In this document: piece by piece, positions 3,883 to 14,923 of the stretch
Layout of the letters: each line of letters starts with the position of its first letter
Position numbering within the stretch: the stretch's first letter is position 1
IMG/VR virus record: IMGVR_UViG_3300030117_006011
Location: 1 to 22,457 of that record
Strand: one strand, 5' to 3'
Length of the DNA stretch: 22,457 nt
Source: a virus
Program-made: the position numbers and the translations under genes
The notes under the pieces: generated by a model
Databases searched by the model: none
What the model saw: only the letters and a program-made list of their open reading frames with translations
Told to the model about the DNA's origin: nothing

Positions 3883-6800
3883 TTAGCACTGCCATTGTGC
3901 ACAAGTTGCTGTATAATCACCGCTAGCATTACCATCTAGCATATCACTGTTATCATAAATTAATCCATTAGTGTTTGCTAAGTCATTGCAACATGAACAT
4001 AAATCTGACCAATCAGGTTCAACATTGGTGCCAAACACTTGTTGACAAGAGTTTACACTGTTGTTATATGGAGTTGGTCCCCAAACAACACCGTCATATA
4101 AACATTGGCTAGGGTCACTAGTAGTTGCTGCGTACCAAAACGTAGTGGAATTAGGATCCATACAACCAACATAAGTACAAGAACTACTCCCCATTTGATA
4201 ATTTCCAACTGGATCCCAAGTTGCATTAGGATTATAGTTAGTAGCGCCAGCCACACCAGTAAATGGATTAGCACCCGTAAGACCATCTACACACCCAGGA
4301 ACACAAGGAGCGTCTTGGTATAAACCAGCCCAAATATCATTAATTATAAAATTACCTTGAACATAACTAGCACTATACCAATTTGGATCTCCGTCGCACC
4401 AACCTGGTTGACTATTATCAGAAATAGTTTGAACATTTACAAGACCATCATTAGCCCCGCATTGGTAACAAGTAGTATCCCAGGTGCAACTATCATCCCC
4501 ACCATTTTCTCCACTTTGCGCGTTAGGGTCATAGTTAGCAGCTGGAAATCCTGGATATCCACAATCATTAGCTGGGGCATTACCAGCGCCAGCACCGCCG
4601 TCGCAAGTACAGCCGTAAACACCAGTGTAATCACAACTATTATCATCAACAGTTGCGTTAGGATCGTAGTTATTCGGAACAGGTGGTCCTTCGTCTGTAC
4701 AGCCAGGATAAGCACAAGAGCTAGTTCCTGATTGGTAATCTCCTTGTGGATCCCAAGTAGCAGCAGAATCATAGTTAGAAGCATAATAACCATTACCAGA
4801 ACCACAACAATGATAACTAGCGCATTGAGTTCCATCAACACAAAAGCCGTTTACATCGGGATTATCACCGCCAGTAGGATCTACACATCCAGGAACACAA
4901 GGATCGTTAGGATTAGTACCTACCCAAATGTCATTTATTATATAAGCTCCTGCGTCGTCTCCATTGACAGTACCATTACCACATAAATTTGGTATTGCAT
5001 TGTTAGTTGAGCTAGATGAATTAACATATCCATTAACACATTGGTAACAAATAGTTGTATACAAACAAGAACCATCATCCGTGTTGGCATTGGCATCGTA
5101 GTTGTTTGCAACAAAACCATCGCCATTTTCCGTATCACCGCCATCAGTACATCCAAGAATAACTGCACAAGTTGCAGTTGCATTAACACTACCAGTTGTA
5201 AATGAGTAACCAGAAGTTTCATTTGCTATATCAGTCTGAAGTCCCATTGAACTTTCGTTTGCATCACCTGGAGTATTACAATATTCCCAAGTACAACTTC
5301 CATCATCGGTATTAACATCTACACTTGGATCACCTGTGTAGTGATTTCCGTTATTAAAATTAGTCGCATTAACGGCTAATAATCCACCTGGTGTACCTAA
5401 ACATCCGTAATTAAAATCAATACACATTGATGGATCGTTTATAGTTGCGTTGTTAGGCATGCCAGTGTTATAATAACCTGAATCTAAACAACCAGCTATT
5501 GGAAGTATACAACTACCATCATCTTGAATATTACCACCGTTGTTATAATTAGTGGCTTCAGGAGGGAAAGTAGTTGTATTGGTAGCAGTATTATCCGTGC
5601 ATCCCAACCATACACATGAACCATCATCACTTGTTACATTGTCGTTACAACTTGTTCCACCTTGCCAAATATTATTTCCGTTTTCACAATCGAAATTATT
5701 TGCGCTAGGCTCCATACAACCCTGTACTGCGTTAGGATAAGTACAACTCCCATCATCATCATTCGCTGTTGGATCATAATTTAAAGCTGTTGGATCTGTA
5801 CATCCGGAAACCGTACCCACCATAGTGTGTCCAGTTGGAACGCCCAACCCTTGTATCGCGAAACTACTTTGATCAAAACTAGAACTACCATCAGGATTAA
5901 AAATTAATGCTCCATCAGCAGTGTGAGATACATCTTTTCCCCTTATGTAATTAAACCATTTACCTTCTTTTTCTATAAATTCAAAAACATCTCCAGATTC
6001 TTTGTTGGTAAATATATTATCAACATACCAACCGGGTCTAGTTTGGTAAGCATGGCTATTGTAATAATCATTATCATCGGTATTTTGTGTTACTTTTGAA
6101 TTACTACCCTCGTAGTTTATTGTGTGAAAAGATTTAACAGAGCCAGGTGCTTCGTTAAAAATAACGTCAACAGTAGAATAATCAAGATTTGTGTGTATGC
6201 CGTAAAAAGTATTTCTACCAACAGTTTCGTCGTGATGTCTCCATAAATTACCATTTTTAAAAGTATAATATTCATTAGCACAGCTAACACCGTTGTTAGT
6301 TACAAATGATTTAAAACTAACCCATCCTCTTACGTCTTCTTTAAATGTAACAGTTTTAGAAATATCATTTATAGTAATATTATATTCATCTTTTTTATCA
6401 TCATAACTTCCTGTTAACTTATTACTTAATTTTAAATGATCTCTAAACCAATCTTTCATTCCATGGTTAGATATAGGTGTTAAACCATCTGTAGACAATC
6501 TCATAACAGTACCCCTAACTTTATCTGTAAAATATGCTCTATAAGCTTCCGAAGCAAAAGATTCTGGATTTTTAGATATACCATATTCACCAGTATAAGG
6601 AGTTGCTGTTCCTAAAACTCTATTTGTAGACGTGATGTTCGTGTTTCCATCAGCGTTAAATAAAGCATCTTTATTAGCTAGTATTCTTAAAATTCTATCT
6701 TCACAAAGAGCTATTAAATCACCACCTTGTCCCCATCCAGCTTTTAATTTTTGAATACTACCGTAAATAGGATTTATATCTTTTGTTATTTTTTCAGCTG

Positions 6801-9800
6801 CTATAAATTGATTTAAATCATTAACTCCGGAAGTAGAGTTATATATTCCAGAGTATATTAAACCATGTTTCCTTCTTTCTTGTTTGTACTCAGTTTCTAA
6901 TGTACTAGAAGCTTTTACACCATTGGCAATGTATGTTAAGTTAAAACTATCCTTAATTCTATTAGATTCAACACCATTTCCAAAAGAATAGCAATTGTGC
7001 CAATTTAAATAAAAATCACTGTTATATATTGAAGAATGTAATCTAAACTTATCTGTTGTTTGTGGAAAGCCAGAATCAGGAAATACTTCAGCAATTTTTA
7101 CTTCAAACGAAACACCATTTGGTTTTGTTATTTTTAAAGTATCTCCAGATGCTATAGGTAAAGTAACATTACCATCTGCGTCTGGTGGACTATTTCCAGG
7201 TCCTATCCAAACTAATTCAGATATTCTTATAGTATTTCCATCAGGAAAAATATTGTCATTAACAGTTACATCGCCCCAATTACCTCCTAAACCTGATGTA
7301 TTTTCTATTTTCGAATAAATAGGGATAGCTGATATAATAGTGCTTGCACTTAAGTTTATAGGATAGTTTTCACTTATCTCATAGTAAATATCTAACCCAG
7401 TGTCATCTTTAGGTTCTGTTTCCCAAACATAAGGATCTGATGGTAAATAGCCACCATCTTCAAACTCCTCTACAGGTTCTAGCATTTCAATTTCATACCC
7501 AACAGCTGCTATCCCACCAGAACCACCAGAACCAGGAGCTTGTCCATTAGCATGCCATTTTGTTTTCCAGAAATCAGTGTTTTCTTCCGTGAAATTACTA
7601 ACACTATTCATTGTCACTTGTCTAAATTCTAAATTCTGAGTAGCGGTAAAGGCTGTACCATCAAAATCATCTTGCCCATAATGTAGAGGTTCATAATAAC
7701 CAGCTAGAGTAATTTCATAACCCCCTGTTCCACCCGCTAAATTAGAATTATAAGGCCCTATATCTTTAACTATGACATTTCCACTAGCGGTAACACCTAA
7801 ATTATTATATCTTGTAAGCATCATACCTTTGTGCAAAGGATATTTAGGTTTGTTTGTATTGATTTGGCAAGAAGACCAAAGAGTATCTACAACAATAGTA
7901 TTAGTAGTAGGATCACTATTATCCATTGGATATACATTTGAATCTAAAACTTTTATATCTTGCAATTGCAAGCCATTTGGCATAAACGTAGTGTTTGCAG
8001 CTGGATTCCAATTTGACATATCAGGAACAACATCAAACGTCCATGTTTTATGGTAAGATGATGGGTCTTTTATTAATTTATTAAAATTATTAACAGCACT
8101 AAAACTAGTGTTAAACCCTTCATCTAATCTAGAAAATCTTAATCTATTATTATTCGCTATTTGGTTGTCAATAGTGTATATAGTTTCCGTTGGATCATCT
8201 TTCCATCTAAAAGACTGACCAGCGTTTATTCTTTCAACAAATGATTTAGTATCACCATCGTCATAATTACCAGTATCTGCCTCTCCAATACTAAAAAAAT
8301 TTTCAAATCCCGTGTGATCAATTTGATGATAACTACGTTGATTACCTCCATCATGATCCCATGCTTTATATATTCCAGAGTTATCAATACCACCAAAAGC
8401 TAATTTTACCTTAGAATAATCGTGAGAAGGAAAATCTAAAATCCCAAATCCATTATGAGTTGTAACACTCCATGGGGTAGGAGAGCCTAAATTCCAACTA
8501 TTAATAGCAGGGGAAAAATCATTCATATCATTGTCGGTGTCCGGGGGCGCCATCCACGGTAAAAGATTTGTAGAAGCATCTGGAACTTTATATTTATGTG
8601 TTGATTTATCTATAAACCAAACGCCTGGTAATAAATTATTGGGAACTGACGGGTAGTTGTTATCATAATCATCTTGAGTACTACTTGTCGAGTTAAGAGT
8701 AAATACCAAAGGCTTGTCACCTAAACTAAGATGAGAATGTGGACCTTCTTCGTCCAACATAGCACATCCAAAATAAGCTTGTCTAGCATATAAAAAATTA
8801 AAATTTTCTCCATTAGGATTATTGTCATTAAGACCAACGAAATTACTATCTATTAATCCAGAGTAATCAGTTATAACTAAGTTTTCCGTCACTCCAGTTG
8901 GATTGTTTACTTGATTTACTTCGTCAGAAACCGTTATATATTGATCGGAAAAATGTGCATTAGCAGATCTTACTTGTAAAAGATCGTCACTTTCTAGTGA
9001 GTAAACCATTTTCCCGGTTTTTCGTAAATAATTTACACCAGTAGAACTAGTATCTAGTTGTGATTTAATTTTACCGTCATTTTCAATTTTAACAAAAAAT
9101 CTACCTTCAAATTTAGGTTTGTTTTCTACTACGGCTTTTGTAAATTGAATTTTTACTTGATCGTTTATTGAAGATGGTGTCGCTGGATTGTCAAAAATAA
9201 AATCAATATCATCTTTAAAGCTAGTATCAATAGTAACATAATATTCCGTTGGCTGTATACCAATACTACCGCTTGTAGGTATTTCTCTATCAGAAGTAAT
9301 TGAAGATATTTTATATTGCGACGAATAATCACTTGAGCTTATAAACTGAATATATAAATCCTCGGTAATATCATCTAAATGAGATAAACTACTATTTCCA
9401 AATCCAACTGGATTACCACCTCCAGAAGCACCACCAAAATTCAATGTCATGTCATTAGCAAGTACTCTTGGAATACCAACTGTTTCATCGGTAGATGATC
9501 CCCATAAATAAATTGGATCAGCAGAATTACCCGAATCAAGATTAGCTGGATTATGTGTTACGGATCCAATACGTATTCTTCTTGTTTTAATAAATTCTGG
9601 AGCCTCATTTTCTATAGCTAACACCTTGTATGTATAAGTATTTTCTATAGCATTATCACCTTTTTTAAGGTATAAAGATGTTTCTAAATCTATTTTATTT
9701 CTATCATTAGATGGGAAAGCTAGCCATATATTACCATCTTCTGCTTCATACCACCGATCCATAGGTAGATTATAATATTCTGTAGAGGTTTCGTTTACAA

Positions 9801-12800
9801 AGAATTTAAAATAAGTCATATTACTAGGTGCATTACCTTGCAACCTAGCTACTAATCTATTGTAATTAATACTTTTTGGTTTTTCTATTTTAAATGAACT
9901 AGATTCACTAGTTAACACAGGCGTTTCTCTTCCATATTCATCTGTAAAAACAACTCCAAGTTTGTACTCTCTTAATGATTTTATAGATTTTTCAACAGTA
10001 CCACTAGCTGTAGCTTTCCAGCTTGATATATAATTTTTAAACTCAGGTTTAAATTTTTGACCACTAACTGTTAAGTTAAAATTTTGCTCATAATTACCGT
10101 ATATTATTCTACTACCACTAATATCTTGCGCTAAAGCTTTTTTAGGCACATTATCCCAAGATCTTAAAAGTTGATTAGAAGGTAGTGTGTATTTTATAGT
10201 TTCTGCATGTATTTCAAATTTATTAGTTAACCAAGGATTTGCAATACCTGTTGGCATTATGTCTAATGGACTTATAGTTTCTAAAACATATATATTTGGA
10301 GAATCTTCTTCCTTGTATAGTATATCTATTTCTGTAATATCCAAACCTATAGGTTGATTAAGAAGTATTGGCACGAATCCCTGTAACGTTATAGAGTTAA
10401 CATGATTTGTCATACCTGTATTGTAACCTTTTTTAGCTTCGTAATTAAAATTAGAAGGAAGAAACGCTACCTCAGACCAAGGCGCGAAAATAGAGTATTC
10501 ACCATCTGCGTATTTATATCTATAAGAAAATCTAGGAAATTTATCTTTAAATATAGGTTTTGTTGCAATTTCTAATTGTACCACATAGTGCAATTGTTCT
10601 TCACCAGTACTTACGTCTACTTGTGGAGGTGTTCCATTTAAACTTACAACTTCTATTTCAACATGAGCAGTTCCAACCGCTGAGGCTGGCCAGTTATTAC
10701 CATAAGGAGCCGATGGATCTTGAATACTAGAATCTGATTCAAAAGATTGATACTGCCAGTTTTTTATAACACCTCTTATAGTGTGGTTTGCAAGTGGTAC
10801 AGCTGGCATATTAACAGGATCTTGATCAAATTCTTTAAGTAATAAAAAATCACCTTCATTCCAAGCTAATTCAAAATCTCCATTTCCATCTATATCCGTT
10901 TCTATTTCAAATCGTAAAGAATCTCCTACTTGTAAACCTGAAAAATCATATGGTCCATTTACGCCATTTATAGTTATTATAGATGATTTGTTTTCACCAC
11001 CTATAATATCAGGATCTATGGCTGTATATGTTATACCAGCTATAGTTGAATCTGGATCTACCCCTGAAGATAGTTCTAAACTTAAGCTATTTTTAGGGCT
11101 TTTTCTAATTACAGTAATATGTTCTTTTCTAACTGGATTACTTTCGACTAAACCTATACCAGTAGCTTCATTAATAACAACAGTATGAGTATCACCCAAC
11201 ATATCTGTCCCAAGAATACTACGCTGAATATTTATTTTTTTTGGCTCTGTAAAATTATCAGTCCAAAATAACATGTCATCAACAACGTTAACACCAGTTA
11301 TTAAATTGTTATGTTCAAATTCTAAAACTCTATCGGAGACAAAACAAATAGTTTCTAATCCTAGTAAATCTACACTGTTCTGTAGTTGTATTACTGGTAA
11401 ACCAAATTGTGGTGCTGTAATAAAATCCATTTGTAAGCCCGAAGGATTCATGTTTAAAGCATTGACAGGTATGTAATCATAACCAGCTTGATTCCAAGGA
11501 CAGCCCATAATTTCATACTCATCATCGGTAGGACTAGTAACAGAATTAGGATCAATACAAACGTCCGCTGGGAAGTTAATAGCAGCAGGTCCACTTATTT
11601 GTAAACTAGCGTTAGTATAATTACCATCTTCATCATAAAATATATTATATACTTCATCTAACCATTGATCAGAACTTGGTAATATATTAATAATATTATT
11701 TGGAGTTGAAACTATTGGATTGTAATTTGCTATAGAATCATTTAGCACATTATAAATACCAATCTCACTATTAAAGTTTGGTTGAAAATTAGGCATTAAG
11801 GATGGGTAACTTATATCCGTATAACTACAAGTGCTAATATCTATTGTTATTATATTAGCAACGTAACAACTACCACCACCGGGTATATCAGAACTAAAAG
11901 CACATACAGAATCTTGTACTATACTAATAATTTCCGCGCCCGTAAACAAATACCCAAGATTAGGGGCCCCAGGAGTGTCAACAGTAGCACCAACCTCCCA
12001 TCCGGTAGGTAAAACTCCCGCGGGACCTACAAGTTGAAATATATTTGTTTGCACTTGGCTATTAGCGTCCAACCCAGGAGTACTCGCGGCACCATTTACC
12101 ACGCCATGATCGTTAAGTTTGGAAAATTGCCCAGGATTACTTGGGTCTTCGAACGTTCTCAAATAAAGATCGATAGGAGCGGATTGTTGAATTGCTCCTG
12201 GCGCTGAAGTAGATCCTTGAAAATAATCTACTTTACTTAATTGTGTTAAGTTTCCTATGTTATTTACCAAAACTGGACCTTCAGTTAATGCGGTACCAAC
12301 GTAACCCGTAAAGTTCATGCCAGGTATAATATTACTATACCACTCCTCTGAACTAAGTGATATTCCGGTAACATTCGTAGAGTCGTCGTTAATACCTACA
12401 CACCAACCGTATTTATCTACAAAAACTGGTTCGCAACCAGTGGCTTTTGCAGGGTTTGTACGCATTATTAAATCCTTTAAACTTCCAGTTTCATTTTCAC
12501 TTAAAGGTAGAAGTGAATCTATACTACCACCACCAGCAACCAACCAATATAAAGTATCATTTTTTTCATCTGCAACAGATCCAACCGTAGTAGATCCATC
12601 TGGAATTGGATTAGGATGGTTGTCTGGATCTATATATTCACAACCAGCAATATTACCTAATACGTTTTGAATAGTACCAACATCAGATCCTTCTGAAGTT
12701 GATACTTGAATATTCATCGCATCTCTATATTCACCACTTGGAACAAGTCTCTCGTCAAGATCTTTGTTCATTTTACCTTTGGTAAAATTACGCTTTATAT

Positions 12801-12807
12801 CCGGCAT
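3883..12807 (-). CDS. Giant tail hub/nozzle-like protein with C-terminal Cys-repeat array
   Basis: A 2974-aa protein in one uninterrupted frame. The N-terminus (NFTKGKMNKDLDERLVPSGE, then RDAMNIQVSTSEGSDVGT and QN-LGN) resembles the start of P22 gp10/T7 gp12-like tail stabilisation or nozzle proteins of short-tailed phages. A propeller-like strand set with FWTDNFTEPKKINIQRS lies near residues 500-530. FPRFSYRYKYADGEYSIFAP is near 750 and ISGSRIIYGNYEQNF near 890. The block GEYGISKNPESFASEAYRAY, TDGLTPISNHGMKDWFRDHL, then RGWVSFKSF and FKNGNLWRHH spans about 2030-2205. These segments match what I recall of conserved marine Bacteroidetes phage tail proteins. From about residue 2334 to the end lies a Cys/Asp/Asn-rich repeat array (separate entry). 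At nearly 3000 aa it is much longer than usual nozzle proteins (roughly 700-1000 aa). Likely role: distal tail tube plus receptor-interacting appendage. The core assignment is fairly firm; the function of the array is inferred. Confidence 0.88.
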   Translation of the reverse strand: MPDIKRNFTKGKMNKDLDERLVPSGEYRDAMNIQVSTSEGSDVGTIQNVLGNIAGCEYIDPDNHPNPIPDGSTTVGSVADEKNDTLYWLVAGGGSIDSLLPLSENETGSLKDLIMRTNPAKATGCEPVFVDKYGWCVGINDDSTNVTGISLSSEEWYSNIIPGMNFTGYVGTALTEGPVLVNNIGNLTQLSKVDYFQGSTSAPGAIQQSAPIDLYLRTFEDPSNPGQFSKLNDHGVVNGAASTPGLDANSQVQTNIFQLVGPAGVLPTGWEVGATVDTPGAPNLGYLFTGAEIISIVQDSVCAFSSDIPGGGSCYVANIITIDISTCSYTDISYPSLMPNFQPNFNSEIGIYNVLNDSIANYNPIVSTPNNIINILPSSDQWLDEVYNIFYDEDGNYTNASLQISGPAAINFPADVCIDPNSVTSPTDDEYEIMGCPWNQAGYDYIPVNALNMNPSGLQMDFITAPQFGLPVIQLQNSVDLLGLETICFVSDRVLEFEHNNLITGVNVVDDMLFWTDNFTEPKKINIQRSILGTDMLGDTHTVVINEATGIGLVESNPVRKEHITVIRKSPKNSLSLELSSGVDPDSTIAGITYTAIDPDIIGGENKSSIITINGVNGPYDFSGLQVGDSLRFEIETDIDGNGDFELAWNEGDFLLLKEFDQDPVNMPAVPLANHTIRGVIKNWQYQSFESDSSIQDPSAPYGNNWPASAVGTAHVEIEVVSLNGTPPQVDVSTGEEQLHYVVQLEIATKPIFKDKFPRFSYRYKYADGEYSIFAPWSEVAFLPSNFNYEAKKGYNTGMTNHVNSITLQGFVPILLNQPIGLDITEIDILYKEEDSPNIYVLETISPLDIMPTGIANPWLTNKFEIHAETIKYTLPSNQLLRSWDNVPKKALAQDISGSRIIYGNYEQNFNLTVSGQKFKPEFKNYISSWKATASGTVEKSIKSLREYKLGVVFTDEYGRETPVLTSESSSFKIEKPKSINYNRLVARLQGNAPSNMTYFKFFVNETSTEYYNLPMDRWYEAEDGNIWLAFPSNDRNKIDLETSLYLKKGDNAIENTYTYKVLAIENEAPEFIKTRRIRIGSVTHNPANLDSGNSADPIYLWGSSTDETVGIPRVLANDMTLNFGGASGGGNPVGFGNSSLSHLDDITEDLYIQFISSSDYSSQYKISSITSDREIPTSGSIGIQPTEYYVTIDTSFKDDIDFIFDNPATPSSINDQVKIQFTKAVVENKPKFEGRFFVKIENDGKIKSQLDTSSTGVNYLRKTGKMVYSLESDDLLQVRSANAHFSDQYITVSDEVNQVNNPTGVTENLVITDYSGLIDSNFVGLNDNNPNGENFNFLYARQAYFGCAMLDEEGPHSHLSLGDKPLVFTLNSTSSTQDDYDNNYPSVPNNLLPGVWFIDKSTHKYKVPDASTNLLPWMAPPDTDNDMNDFSPAINSWNLGSPTPWSVTTHNGFGILDFPSHDYSKVKLAFGGIDNSGIYKAWDHDGGNQRSYHQIDHTGFENFFSIGEADTGNYDDGDTKSFVERINAGQSFRWKDDPTETIYTIDNQIANNNRLRFSRLDEGFNTSFSAVNNFNKLIKDPSSYHKTWTFDVVPDMSNWNPAANTTFMPNGLQLQDIKVLDSNVYPMDNSDPTTNTIVVDTLWSSCQINTNKPKYPLHKGMMLTRYNNLGVTASGNVIVKDIGPYNSNLAGGTGGYEITLAGYYEPLHYGQDDFDGTAFTATQNLEFRQVTMNSVSNFTEENTDFWKTKWHANGQAPGSGGSGGIAAVGYEIEMLEPVEEFEDGGYLPSDPYVWETEPKDDTGLDIYYEISENYPINLSASTIISAIPIYSKIENTSGLGGNWGDVTVNDNIFPDGNTIRISELVWIGPGNSPPDADGNVTLPIASGDTLKITKPNGVSFEVKIAEVFPDSGFPQTTDKFRLHSSIYNSDFYLNWHNCYSFGNGVESNRIKDSFNLTYIANGVKASSTLETEYKQERRKHGLIYSGIYNSTSGVNDLNQFIAAEKITKDINPIYGSIQKLKAGWGQGGDLIALCEDRILRILANKDALFNADGNTNITSTNRVLGTATPYTGEYGISKNPESFASEAYRAYFTDKVRGTVMRLSTDGLTPISNHGMKDWFRDHLKLSNKLTGSYDDKKDEYNITINDISKTVTFKEDVRGWVSFKSFVTNNGVSCANEYYTFKNGNLWRHHDETVGRNTFYGIHTNLDYSTVDVIFNEAPGSVKSFHTINYEGSNSKVTQNTDDNDYYNSHAYQTRPGWYVDNIFTNKESGDVFEFIEKEGKWFNYIRGKDVSHTADGALIFNPDGSSSFDQSSFAIQGLGVPTGHTMVGTVSGCTDPTALNYDPTANDDDGSCTYPNAVQGCMEPSANNFDCENGNNIWQGGTSCNDNVTSDDGSCVWLGCTDNTATNTTTFPPEATNYNNGGNIQDDGSCILPIAGCLDSGYYNTGMPNNATINDPSMCIDFNYGCLGTPGGLLAVNATNFNNGNHYTGDPSVDVNTDDGSCTWEYCNTPGDANESSMGLQTDIANETSGYSFTTGSVNATATCAVILGCTDGGDTENGDGFVANNYDANANTDDGSCLYTTICYQCVNGYVNSSSSTNNAIPNLCGNGTVNGDDAGAYIINDIWVGTNPNDPCVPGCVDPTGGDNPDVNGFCVDGTQCASYHCCGSGNGYYASNYDSAATWDPQGDYQSGTSSCAYPGCTDEGPPVPNNYDPNATVDDNSCDYTGVYGCTCDGGAGAGNAPANDCGYPGFPAANYDPNAQSGENGGDDSCTWDTTCYQCGANDGLVNVQTISDNSQPGWCDGDPNWYSASYVQGNFIINDIWAGLYQDAPCVPGCVDGLTGANPFTGVAGATNYNPNATWDPVGNYQMGSSSCTYVGCMDPNSTTFWYAATTSDPSQCLYDGVVWGPTPYNNSVNSCQQVFGTNVEPDWSDLCSCCNDLANTNGLIYDNSDMLDGNASGDYTATCAQWQC
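3886..5810 (-). repeat. Array of about 14 Cys-bearing GC-D...DDGSC-type repeats in the giant tail protein
   Basis: The last ~640 residues of the 2974-aa protein consist of about 14 degenerate units of roughly 25-60 residues. The clearest unit is the first, GCTDPTALNYDPTANDDDGS followed by Cys. Units begin with GC-D or a related Cys pair, contain an Asn-Tyr-(D/N)-P/A segment, and end in DDGSC (five exact copies), DDNSC, DDSC or (S)SSC. Some units are expanded or carry extra Cys pairs (CYQC, CASYHCCG, CSCC). Repeats of this kind are known from secreted and surface proteins of marine Bacteroidetes and occasionally from phage tail proteins. The acidic D-D-G-S loops suggest calcium binding and the paired Cys suggest disulfides, both inferred. 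The segment also looks richer in G+C than the rest of the gene: a hand count gives 28/60 at 4501-4560 against 17/60 at 6301-6360. Confidence 0.85.
4160..5049 (-). repeat. Two copies of a larger CYQC...CVPGCVD...SSC module inside the Cys array
   Basis: Within the Cys array a compound module occurs twice, encoded at 4698-5049 and 4160-4470, with two ordinary repeat units between the copies. Both copies contain, in the same order, CYQC, a Val-Asn segment, (Y/F)IINDIW(V/A)G, PCVPGCVD, a Thr-Gly segment, ATWDP-G-YQ-G-SSC and then a GC-D start of the next unit. The copies differ in length through indels and in most other positions, so the duplication is not recent. It indicates growth of the array by duplication of blocks of repeats and not only of single units. 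Confidence 0.8.
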
Positions 12808-12810
12808 ATG

Positions 12811-14181
12811 TTAGTGTTTTATTTGTTTTGACTTACCTCTTAAAGTTTGAGTAATTTCTTCTAATTTAATATTAGATAATCTTAATTTTGCAGTTCTTAT
12901 AGCTGCGAATCTTTCTTTTTTATATCTACGCACTATGTACTCTTGTATATTAGCTTGTGTAGATAATATCGCGTATATAATAGACTTATACATAGCTTCC
13001 TCAGCGAATTTATGCACTCTCATTTCATCGTCTGTACCAAGACTGTCACTTAAATAATCTAAAACCACAGTTTTTCCATTTACATTAGAACTAAAGTGTA
13101 TTTCACCCATATCGCAATCTATATAAAACGATCCATTAACTTGAGCGTGTTGTGGATCTAATCCATATCTACCACCTTCTGAAGGCCAATAAATATCATC
13201 TTCATAATCATCGTTATTATTTTCTGATGGAGTTGATGATTTATAGTTCGAACTAGTAGTAGAATATTCTTCATCTCCAACTCTTACTAAAGAAATATTA
13301 TCTATAACAAGACCGTCAGTACCACTAGTAGTGGTATTTCTAAAAGATATAGTCTGAGGTTCCCAAGTAATAGCTGGAAAAGTAGCTGTAGACATGTCTA
13401 TAGTTAATGAATACGTACCGTTAGCAGTTATATCTATTGATTTATATCTTTTACCATCTTGATCTACTAACCACCAATTAAATGTACCAGCAACATAATC
13501 ACTTATTGTAAAGCTAAGCGTGTATGTCTCTCCACTATTTATAGGTACGTTAGTTTTTCTTATCGAATTATTATTAACCGCGTTAAAAAGTTTTAACTTA
13601 TTGTCGTGCCAAAGCCAACCTTGAGAAGTAGTAAAATTAGCATCTGGAGCACCTGATATTGTGTTTGCCACTATATTTGTGTTTCCTTGTAATACACCGT
13701 CCCTAGCTGTAACGTTTAAATCCCAACCATCACTACCTCCTTCAAGCGTCTCGTTTATTAATAAATTACCTGAAGGTATTAAATTTCCTTCAACATCAAA
13801 TAATAAATCGCCATCTGTATCAATTTGAGGGCGAAATGAATTTGACGTACTTTTTGTTGGGTATAAAGGATGTTTTATACCAGCAGAATCTATCCAACTT
13901 ATTTTTGTATAATTTACATAATCTTGTGGGAGTTGCGTTTTTAATGAAGCAGGAACTGTTATTTCTCTTGCTTTGCAAGACTTAAACGTATCAAAAGATA
14001 ATTCTTGCATTGCTCTTTGAGCGTGAAAAGCAACGTCTGTACGTTTTGCTTTAGAAATTATTTTGCCTTCTCCCACGTAAACAACCATGAATTGTTGTAT
14101 TATATCATCTAAAGAGGTAAATTGATAGCTTCCAGAATTGTTACTATCGTAATAAGCTTGAGTTTTATCTATTAGTCCCAT
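12811..14181 (-). CDS. Adaptor/neck-like structural protein with an inserted jelly-roll (CBM-like) domain
   Basis: A 456-aa protein in three parts. Residues 1-120 contain FTSLDDIIQQFMVVYVGEGK, TDVAFHAQRAMQELSFDTFK and LPQDYVNYTKISWIDSAGIK. This pattern is conserved, as far as I recall, in marine phage proteins placed between connector and tail genes and reminiscent of tail-tube A/adaptor proteins. Residues about 150-305 look like a separate beta-sandwich: SQGWLWHDNKLKLFNAVNNN, then a GETYTLSFTISDYVAGTFNW strand pair, then GTDGLVIDNISLVRVGD at the end, the strand pattern and closing IDNISL typical of CBM4/9-like modules. Residues 335-456 return to a conserved type with a basic helical tail (IVRRYKKERFAAIRTAKLRL). 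The gene begins 4 bases after the 245-aa gene and ends 3 bases before the giant tail gene, consistent with assembly at the portal-tail junction. The adaptor role is inference; the insertion is visible as a change in composition. Confidence 0.8.
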   Translation of the reverse strand: MGLIDKTQAYYDSNNSGSYQFTSLDDIIQQFMVVYVGEGKIISKAKRTDVAFHAQRAMQELSFDTFKSCKAREITVPASLKTQLPQDYVNYTKISWIDSAGIKHPLYPTKSTSNSFRPQIDTDGDLLFDVEGNLIPSGNLLINETLEGGSDGWDLNVTARDGVLQGNTNIVANTISGAPDANFTTSQGWLWHDNKLKLFNAVNNNSIRKTNVPINSGETYTLSFTISDYVAGTFNWWLVDQDGKRYKSIDITANGTYSLTIDMSTATFPAITWEPQTISFRNTTTSGTDGLVIDNISLVRVGDEEYSTTSSNYKSSTPSENNNDDYEDDIYWPSEGGRYGLDPQHAQVNGSFYIDCDMGEIHFSSNVNGKTVVLDYLSDSLGTDDEMRVHKFAEEAMYKSIIYAILSTQANIQEYIVRRYKKERFAAIRTAKLRLSNIKLEEITQTLRGKSKQIKH

Positions 14182-14185
14182 TTAT

Positions 14186-14923
14186 TTATTGTTTTTCTTG
14201 TTGAATCTGTGACCCTTCCATTCCTTGTCCCGCTCTCATAATATCATCTCGCTTCATAGACACACCAGCATATTTTAATATTTTGTAAACCAGTTCAGTT
14301 TCTTCGCTTGAATGTAGTTCAAAGTTGTATGTTTTACCTAGACCAGTAGATGGATCATATAATTCAGGATCGTGCAAGGCTTTACCACCTACTACAACGT
14401 AACCCCATATAGGCTTTGCTGGTCTTCTAAAATAAACCACGACAGTTGGTGTTAAACCTGTATTATTACTACCAATTATTCTTAAAATATTATTTCTAAT
14501 ATTTGCTATAGGTCTTTTGTCACTAGGTTTTGTAAGCGGACCACCATTAACACAATTATTAAAATCTTTGGTTTTTAATATTTCGCAGTCAGCGTTAACA
14601 TATTCTATTCTACTCACTCTATAAATATAATCAGGTAGTAAATAATAACCGCCTGTCACGATGCCATAATAACTAATCTCACCTGCAAAATCTGTTTTTT
14701 CAAAAACTTGAAGTTTTTCTTCTAACATGTCATCAATATCAGCATAAACATATTCGTTACCAGGTATTCTAGCTTGTTGATTTAAATCGTAAAAATATTG
14801 TTCAAATATTTCCATTTGAGCTTGATCAGCAAATAAATTAAATTCTTGAGGTGTTATATAACCTCTTTGTTCTTTATTAGCCAAAGCCAAAACTTTTTGA
14901 TATACATCATCTATAATAACCAT
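14186..14923 (-). CDS. Connector/head-completion-like structural protein
   Basis: A 245-aa protein whose N-terminus (KEQRGYITPQEFNLFADQAQ followed by MEIFEQYFYDLNQ) I recognise from memory as a recurring element of marine Bacteroidetes phage structural modules. The first ~80 residues are helical. The middle is beta-rich, with YGIVTGGYYLLPDYIYRVSR and a Thr-Val-Val-Val-Tyr-Phe-Arg-Arg-Pro strand, and the last 40 residues are helical (SSEETELVYKILKYAGVSMK) with a Gln-rich end. A helical N-terminus, small beta core and helical C-terminus placed between capsid and tail genes suit a head-tail connector ring protein, though no fold can be proved here. It follows the 54-aa CxC gene with a 9-base gap of A residues and T, and precedes the adaptor-like gene by 4 bases. 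Alternative: a tail terminator-type protein. Confidence 0.75.
   Translation of the reverse strand: MVIIDDVYQKVLALANKEQRGYITPQEFNLFADQAQMEIFEQYFYDLNQQARIPGNEYVYADIDDMLEEKLQVFEKTDFAGEISYYGIVTGGYYLLPDYIYRVSRIEYVNADCEILKTKDFNNCVNGGPLTKPSDKRPIANIRNNILRIIGSNNTGLTPTVVVYFRRPAKPIWGYVVVGGKALHDPELYDPSTGLGKTYNFELHSSEETELVYKILKYAGVSMKRDDIMRAGQGMEGSQIQQEKQ

Follow-up and report, generated by a model that had tools for sequence, protein, structure and literature searches.

Several alternative carbohydrate-binding modules (CBMs) are carried on the neck passage structure of the 936 lactococcal siphophages, and one of these neck CBMs binds host cells (PMC6669499). Neck passage proteins also exchange their C-terminal domains on a near-identical N-terminus (PMC10684548), and in the evolved Dit, a structural tail protein, a BppA-type CBM forms an internal insertion (PMC6669499). 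With neck CBMs, internal CBM insertions in Dit, and neck-passage domain exchange all published, the view taken in an earlier note on this DNA, that the neck is an uncommon place for a sugar-binding domain, does not hold. A further point of comparison is the phage crAss001, whose ring proteins consist of helices plus a beta sandwich and whose R1 and R2 rings form the interface for tail-fibre docking hubs; in the paper describing this structure we found neither a CBM-like module nor module swapping in ring 1 (PMC10172136).

The locus analyzed here resembles the 936 neck passage structure in having a CBM-like domain at what is probably the phage neck, with alternative modules. However, the 936 CBM forms the tip of a collar fibre on a siphophage, whereas the present module is inserted within what is most likely a crAss-like tail ring protein, and an unrelated two-unit module is the commonest alternative in our sample. 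The evolved Dit shares the internal CBM insertion in a structural tail protein, but Dit is located at the baseplate, whereas the present 456-aa protein is encoded between ring and muzzle genes and probably sits at the head-tail junction. What appears to be new is that the carrier is a putative crAss-like ring protein, that the internal site is fixed, that the alternative modules are unrelated, and that empty alleles exist; a limited literature search returned no description of an exchangeable module in a crAss-like ring, and nothing relevant on phi38:1-like tails.

The window (the whole stretch of 22,457 nucleotides that was analyzed) is nearly the whole of a 22.8-kb IMG/VR virus record. Read along the minus strand, its genes encode a terminase, a portal, one further protein, and a major capsid-like protein; after another protein come a ring-like protein of 245 aa, the 456-aa protein, and a giant protein of 2974 aa. 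The open reading frame is present at the coordinates given in the earlier note and lies on the minus strand (Table 1). Its product matched the profile of phrog_13977 (virion structural protein) with an E value of 4.3e-46, and gp096 of Cellulophaga phage phi38:1 (phrog_13977), annotated as a virion structural protein, is a clear homologue of its core in the same gene order, but has only 283 aa and lacks the inserted module.

Table 1. Features of the locus, in window coordinates.
Feature	Position	Strand	Basis
Head-tail ring/adaptor-like virion protein (most likely), 456 aa	12811..14181	-	phrog_13977, phi38:1 gp096 homology
N-terminal core (residues 1-135), highly conserved, with two helices and the initial strands of the beta domain (modelled)	13777..14181	-	Alignment, modelled secondary structure
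Inserted CBM4/9-like beta-sandwich module (predicted), residues ~136-303, exchangeable site	13273..13776	-	Empty sites, AF2, PDB/Pfam profile matches
C-terminal core (residues 304-456), with the rest of the strands and two long helices (modelled)	12814..13272	-	Alignment, model
Ring-like protein encoded upstream; its family is related to crAss001 gp34 (ring 4/5 protein)	14186..14923	-	hhalign, phrog_14543
Downstream giant 2974-aa muzzle-like protein	3883..12807	-	crAss_MUZ, phrog_14478

The neighbors of the gene agree with the earlier assignment to a neck/adaptor-type protein. The upstream family aligned with crAss001 gp34 at an hhalign probability of 81% (P 1.3e-5). Residues 6-56 of the downstream giant matched Pfam crAss_MUZ (E 5e-6; 25.3 bits, just under the cut-off of 27), the giant matched phrog_14478 (E 1e-126), and its phi38:1 homologue (gp097, L083) matched crAss_MUZ_C (E 1.1e-18). 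Since its gene lies between a gp34-related gene and a crAss muzzle homologue, the latter adjoining it within the ring gene cluster, the 456-aa protein is most likely a head-tail ring protein. As phi38:1 belongs to Pervagoviridae, the match of gp097 also suggests that muzzles of the crass type are not confined to Crassvirales in its present classification.

Among 11 crAss001 proteins, the core best fitted ring 1 (gp43), with a collinear alignment over 156 columns (P 0.02), in a comparison that favored ring 1 as the sole protein of the 11 represented by an alignment (12 members). Like our gene, that of crAss001 ring 1 lies directly upstream of the muzzle gene. A low-confidence model of the core gave the order two helices, strands, insert, strands, and two long helices, a layout that fits the combination of helices and beta sandwich in crAss ring proteins. 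On the other side, hhalign of the core directly against individual crAss ring sequences gave nothing significant, none of 14 core-family members matched Pfam CrAss_Ring_1 (PF24228), and the core family found no match in the PDB. The weak collinear alignment and the gene order thus point to the core as a likely, if not proven, counterpart of crAss ring 1. Suoliviridae ring-1 proteins (L241-L244) have 287-327 aa, compared with 227-243 aa in Steigviridae, and their up to ~90 extra residues lie mostly in the loop that aligns with our insertion site.

As judged by alignment with its relatives, the 456-aa protein carries a clean insertion at one fixed spot. Two relatives, L116 and L143, have an empty site with the junction ...DGSYTFDASGNLL/TDSESTTWSNYKSGTPSEN, where DGSYTFDASGNLL is directly joined to TDSESTTWSNYKS; both proteins have 291 aa and share 70-71% of their aligned positions with the query. 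Residues ~136-303 are likewise missing from the closest annotated relatives, namely phi38:1 gp096, Elemovirus (286 aa), Panino (290 aa), and MW202828 (307 aa), and from a 307-aa sister family (L154-L233) of nearly constant length. The earlier note had proposed an insertion at residues 150-305 and had asked whether some relatives lack it: the insertion stands, with a clear boundary against the relatives without it, but its span is wider than proposed. As far as the empty alleles show, the segment is not an integral part of the adaptor fold. Across 84 aligned relatives, modal identity per 30-residue block was ~64-92% in the flanks (0.70-0.81 over residues 1-120 and 0.71-0.92 from residue 331) and 26-41% in the insert.

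To characterize the insert, we built a profile from 26 CBM-type modules: 24 from the query's CBM cluster plus the L047/L150 pair, which had fallen outside it in clustering and was added. This profile matched a hyaluronate lyase in the PDB (4d0q, E 1.1e-5) and, with lower significance, the CBM4 modules of endoglucanase C (1gu3/1ulo, E 0.0075) and S-layer associated endoglucanase modules (2zew, E 0.08), and 7 of the 26 members matched Pfam CBM_4_9 (best E 1.3e-5). Taken singly, the query's own module scored best against HpiC1-like (E 0.003, under the cut-off) rather than directly against CBM_4_9 and reached no curated Pfam cut-off, and the full query gave no credible match in the PDB. An AlphaFold2 run with 24 sequences, the structure prediction that the earlier note had called for, predicted a beta sandwich for the insert, where pLDDT was mostly 80-93, and gave a weak model of the core. 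The profile searches thus bear out the proposed CBM4/9-like module, including its closing IDNISLV strand, and relate the insert to CBM4/9-type (galactose-binding-fold) domains.

The same site holds other modules in related proteins. Our similarity-ranked samples, whose counts are not frequencies in nature, contained 145 insert-bearing relatives (65 with a two-unit 'VGM' module, 44 with a third type, 33 with the CBM type, and 3 with others) in addition to the 2 empty alleles. The insert families had no significant sequence similarity to each other. The two-unit module has mutually related halves (hhalign P 2e-9), and a shorter allele of it occurs in L123; the third type is a longer NGDF...W module. 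Searches with the two-unit and third families against the PDB and Pfam gave no significant family. The CBM and third types aligned with 35% hhalign probability over the N-terminal 33 columns only, and we suspect that they share a fold. A scan of viral contigs with module-only patterns, which were too specific for diverged modules, returned one close relative, the contig of L001. Between close pairs, dN/dS of the inserts was 0.12-0.40, and so the inserts look functional and constrained. CBM-type modules were also found inside the downstream muzzle-like protein of relatives (L101:5366-8359, L033:5339-9334, and L093:5327-8353; best domain E 1e-12), and they may thus move between tail proteins.

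Comparisons of close relatives show that these modules are exchanged. The L017 and L114 proteins are 94% identical in the core and 20% in the insert; their contigs share 95.6% identity over 8.5 kb as far as about codon 117, cannot be aligned across the insert, and align once more from around codon 305, with 84.6% identity downstream. This pattern is repeated in L133/L134, L058/L065, and others, and L023/L065 show the opposite, with inserts 90% identical on cores 78% identical. On a core-only tree of 103 insert-family rows, obtained by a short search and with many weakly supported branches, the module label changed at least 29 times, compared with 43.5 (38-48) for shuffled labels, so that modules follow descent only loosely; supported sister pairs on this tree carry different modules. 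On this sequence evidence, the insertion site of the 456-aa protein family is a swap hotspot for several unrelated modules, a feature absent from the earlier note.

We propose, with a probability of roughly 0.6, that the ring protein presents the module at the neck as an exchangeable cassette for binding the host surface. The 456-aa protein would be a ring subunit, probably the ring-1 counterpart and likely forming a dodecamer that lies between portal and muzzle. Within its beta domain, a loop joining two strands, placed approximately by the low-confidence core model, would serve as fixed acceptor site, holding a CBM4/9-like sandwich here and two-unit, NGDF...W, or rarer modules, or nothing, in relatives. 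Conserved coding DNA on either side could allow homologous recombination to replace the module as a cassette while leaving the ring undisturbed. At the neck, the modules would probably stick out from the barrel and bind variable Bacteroidota surface glycans weakly but at many points, in addition to the contacts made by tail fibres and muzzle. The hosts are probably Bacteroidota, because isolated relatives infect Flavobacteriia and two relatives lie in Bacteroidota MAGs.

In the main rival to this proposal, the module would serve to dock the phage's own tail fibres, or another part of the virion, and would be swapped together with that partner. The R1/R2 region of crAss001 is where fibre-docking hubs attach (PMC10172136), and the lower identity downstream of the insert, 84.6% in the muzzle region of the L251/L250 contigs compared with 95.6% upstream, would fit a joint transfer of module and downstream sequence. 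Dissimilar modules and empty alleles on cores 87-94% identical would nonetheless be a large change for a docking interface, and CBM-type modules also occur in the muzzle-like proteins, where fibre docking is not expected; we therefore consider this reading unlikely. We also find it improbable that the modules have no binding role, being structural decoration (for example, stabilizing the barrel) or near-neutral insertions in a permissive loop. The existence of empty alleles and the extra residues in the aligned loop of Suoliviridae ring 1 suggest that the loop may tolerate insertions. Against this, the inserts appear to be under purifying selection, they are replaced rather than decaying, empty alleles are few (2 vs 145), and the CBM-type module comes from a largely ligand-binding superfamily.

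Nearly all relatives are metagenome contigs, which raises the question of whether the variety of modules could reflect chimeric assembly. This is very improbable: open frames continue through the junctions, alleles recur across separate samples (L017 and L018 with the same match statistics), L062/L066 and L045/L050 are near-identical in both core and insert, and within the coherent module families dN/dS lies well below 1.

Studies of variation in phage host range usually look to the tail fibres. A cassette exchanged within a nearly invariant ring protein would offer another marker of how phage and host surfaces are matched, one that is compact and easy to read, in the mostly uncultured marine phages of Bacteroidota, and the ring protein would be a natural scaffold tolerating many domains at one loop. 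More tentatively, the neck ring may be a dedicated plug-in platform for host recognition, in which a fixed loop of a dodecamer takes unrelated binding domains and the cassette helps to set which host surface can be adsorbed.

Other genes of the window have features of their own. The 2974-aa muzzle-like protein is about twice as long as crAss001 gp44 (1371 aa), and among 96 relatives its first 50 residues are conserved and the remainder variable, modal identity falling from ~0.84 to ~0.1-0.5. Its end is a Cys-rich region, from residue ~2335, with repeats like GCTDPTALNYDPTANDDDGSC, for which no Pfam family was matched. A small protein encoded at 1118-1612 on the minus strand resembles short tail fibre/adhesin families (phrog_12032, E 2.7e-22).
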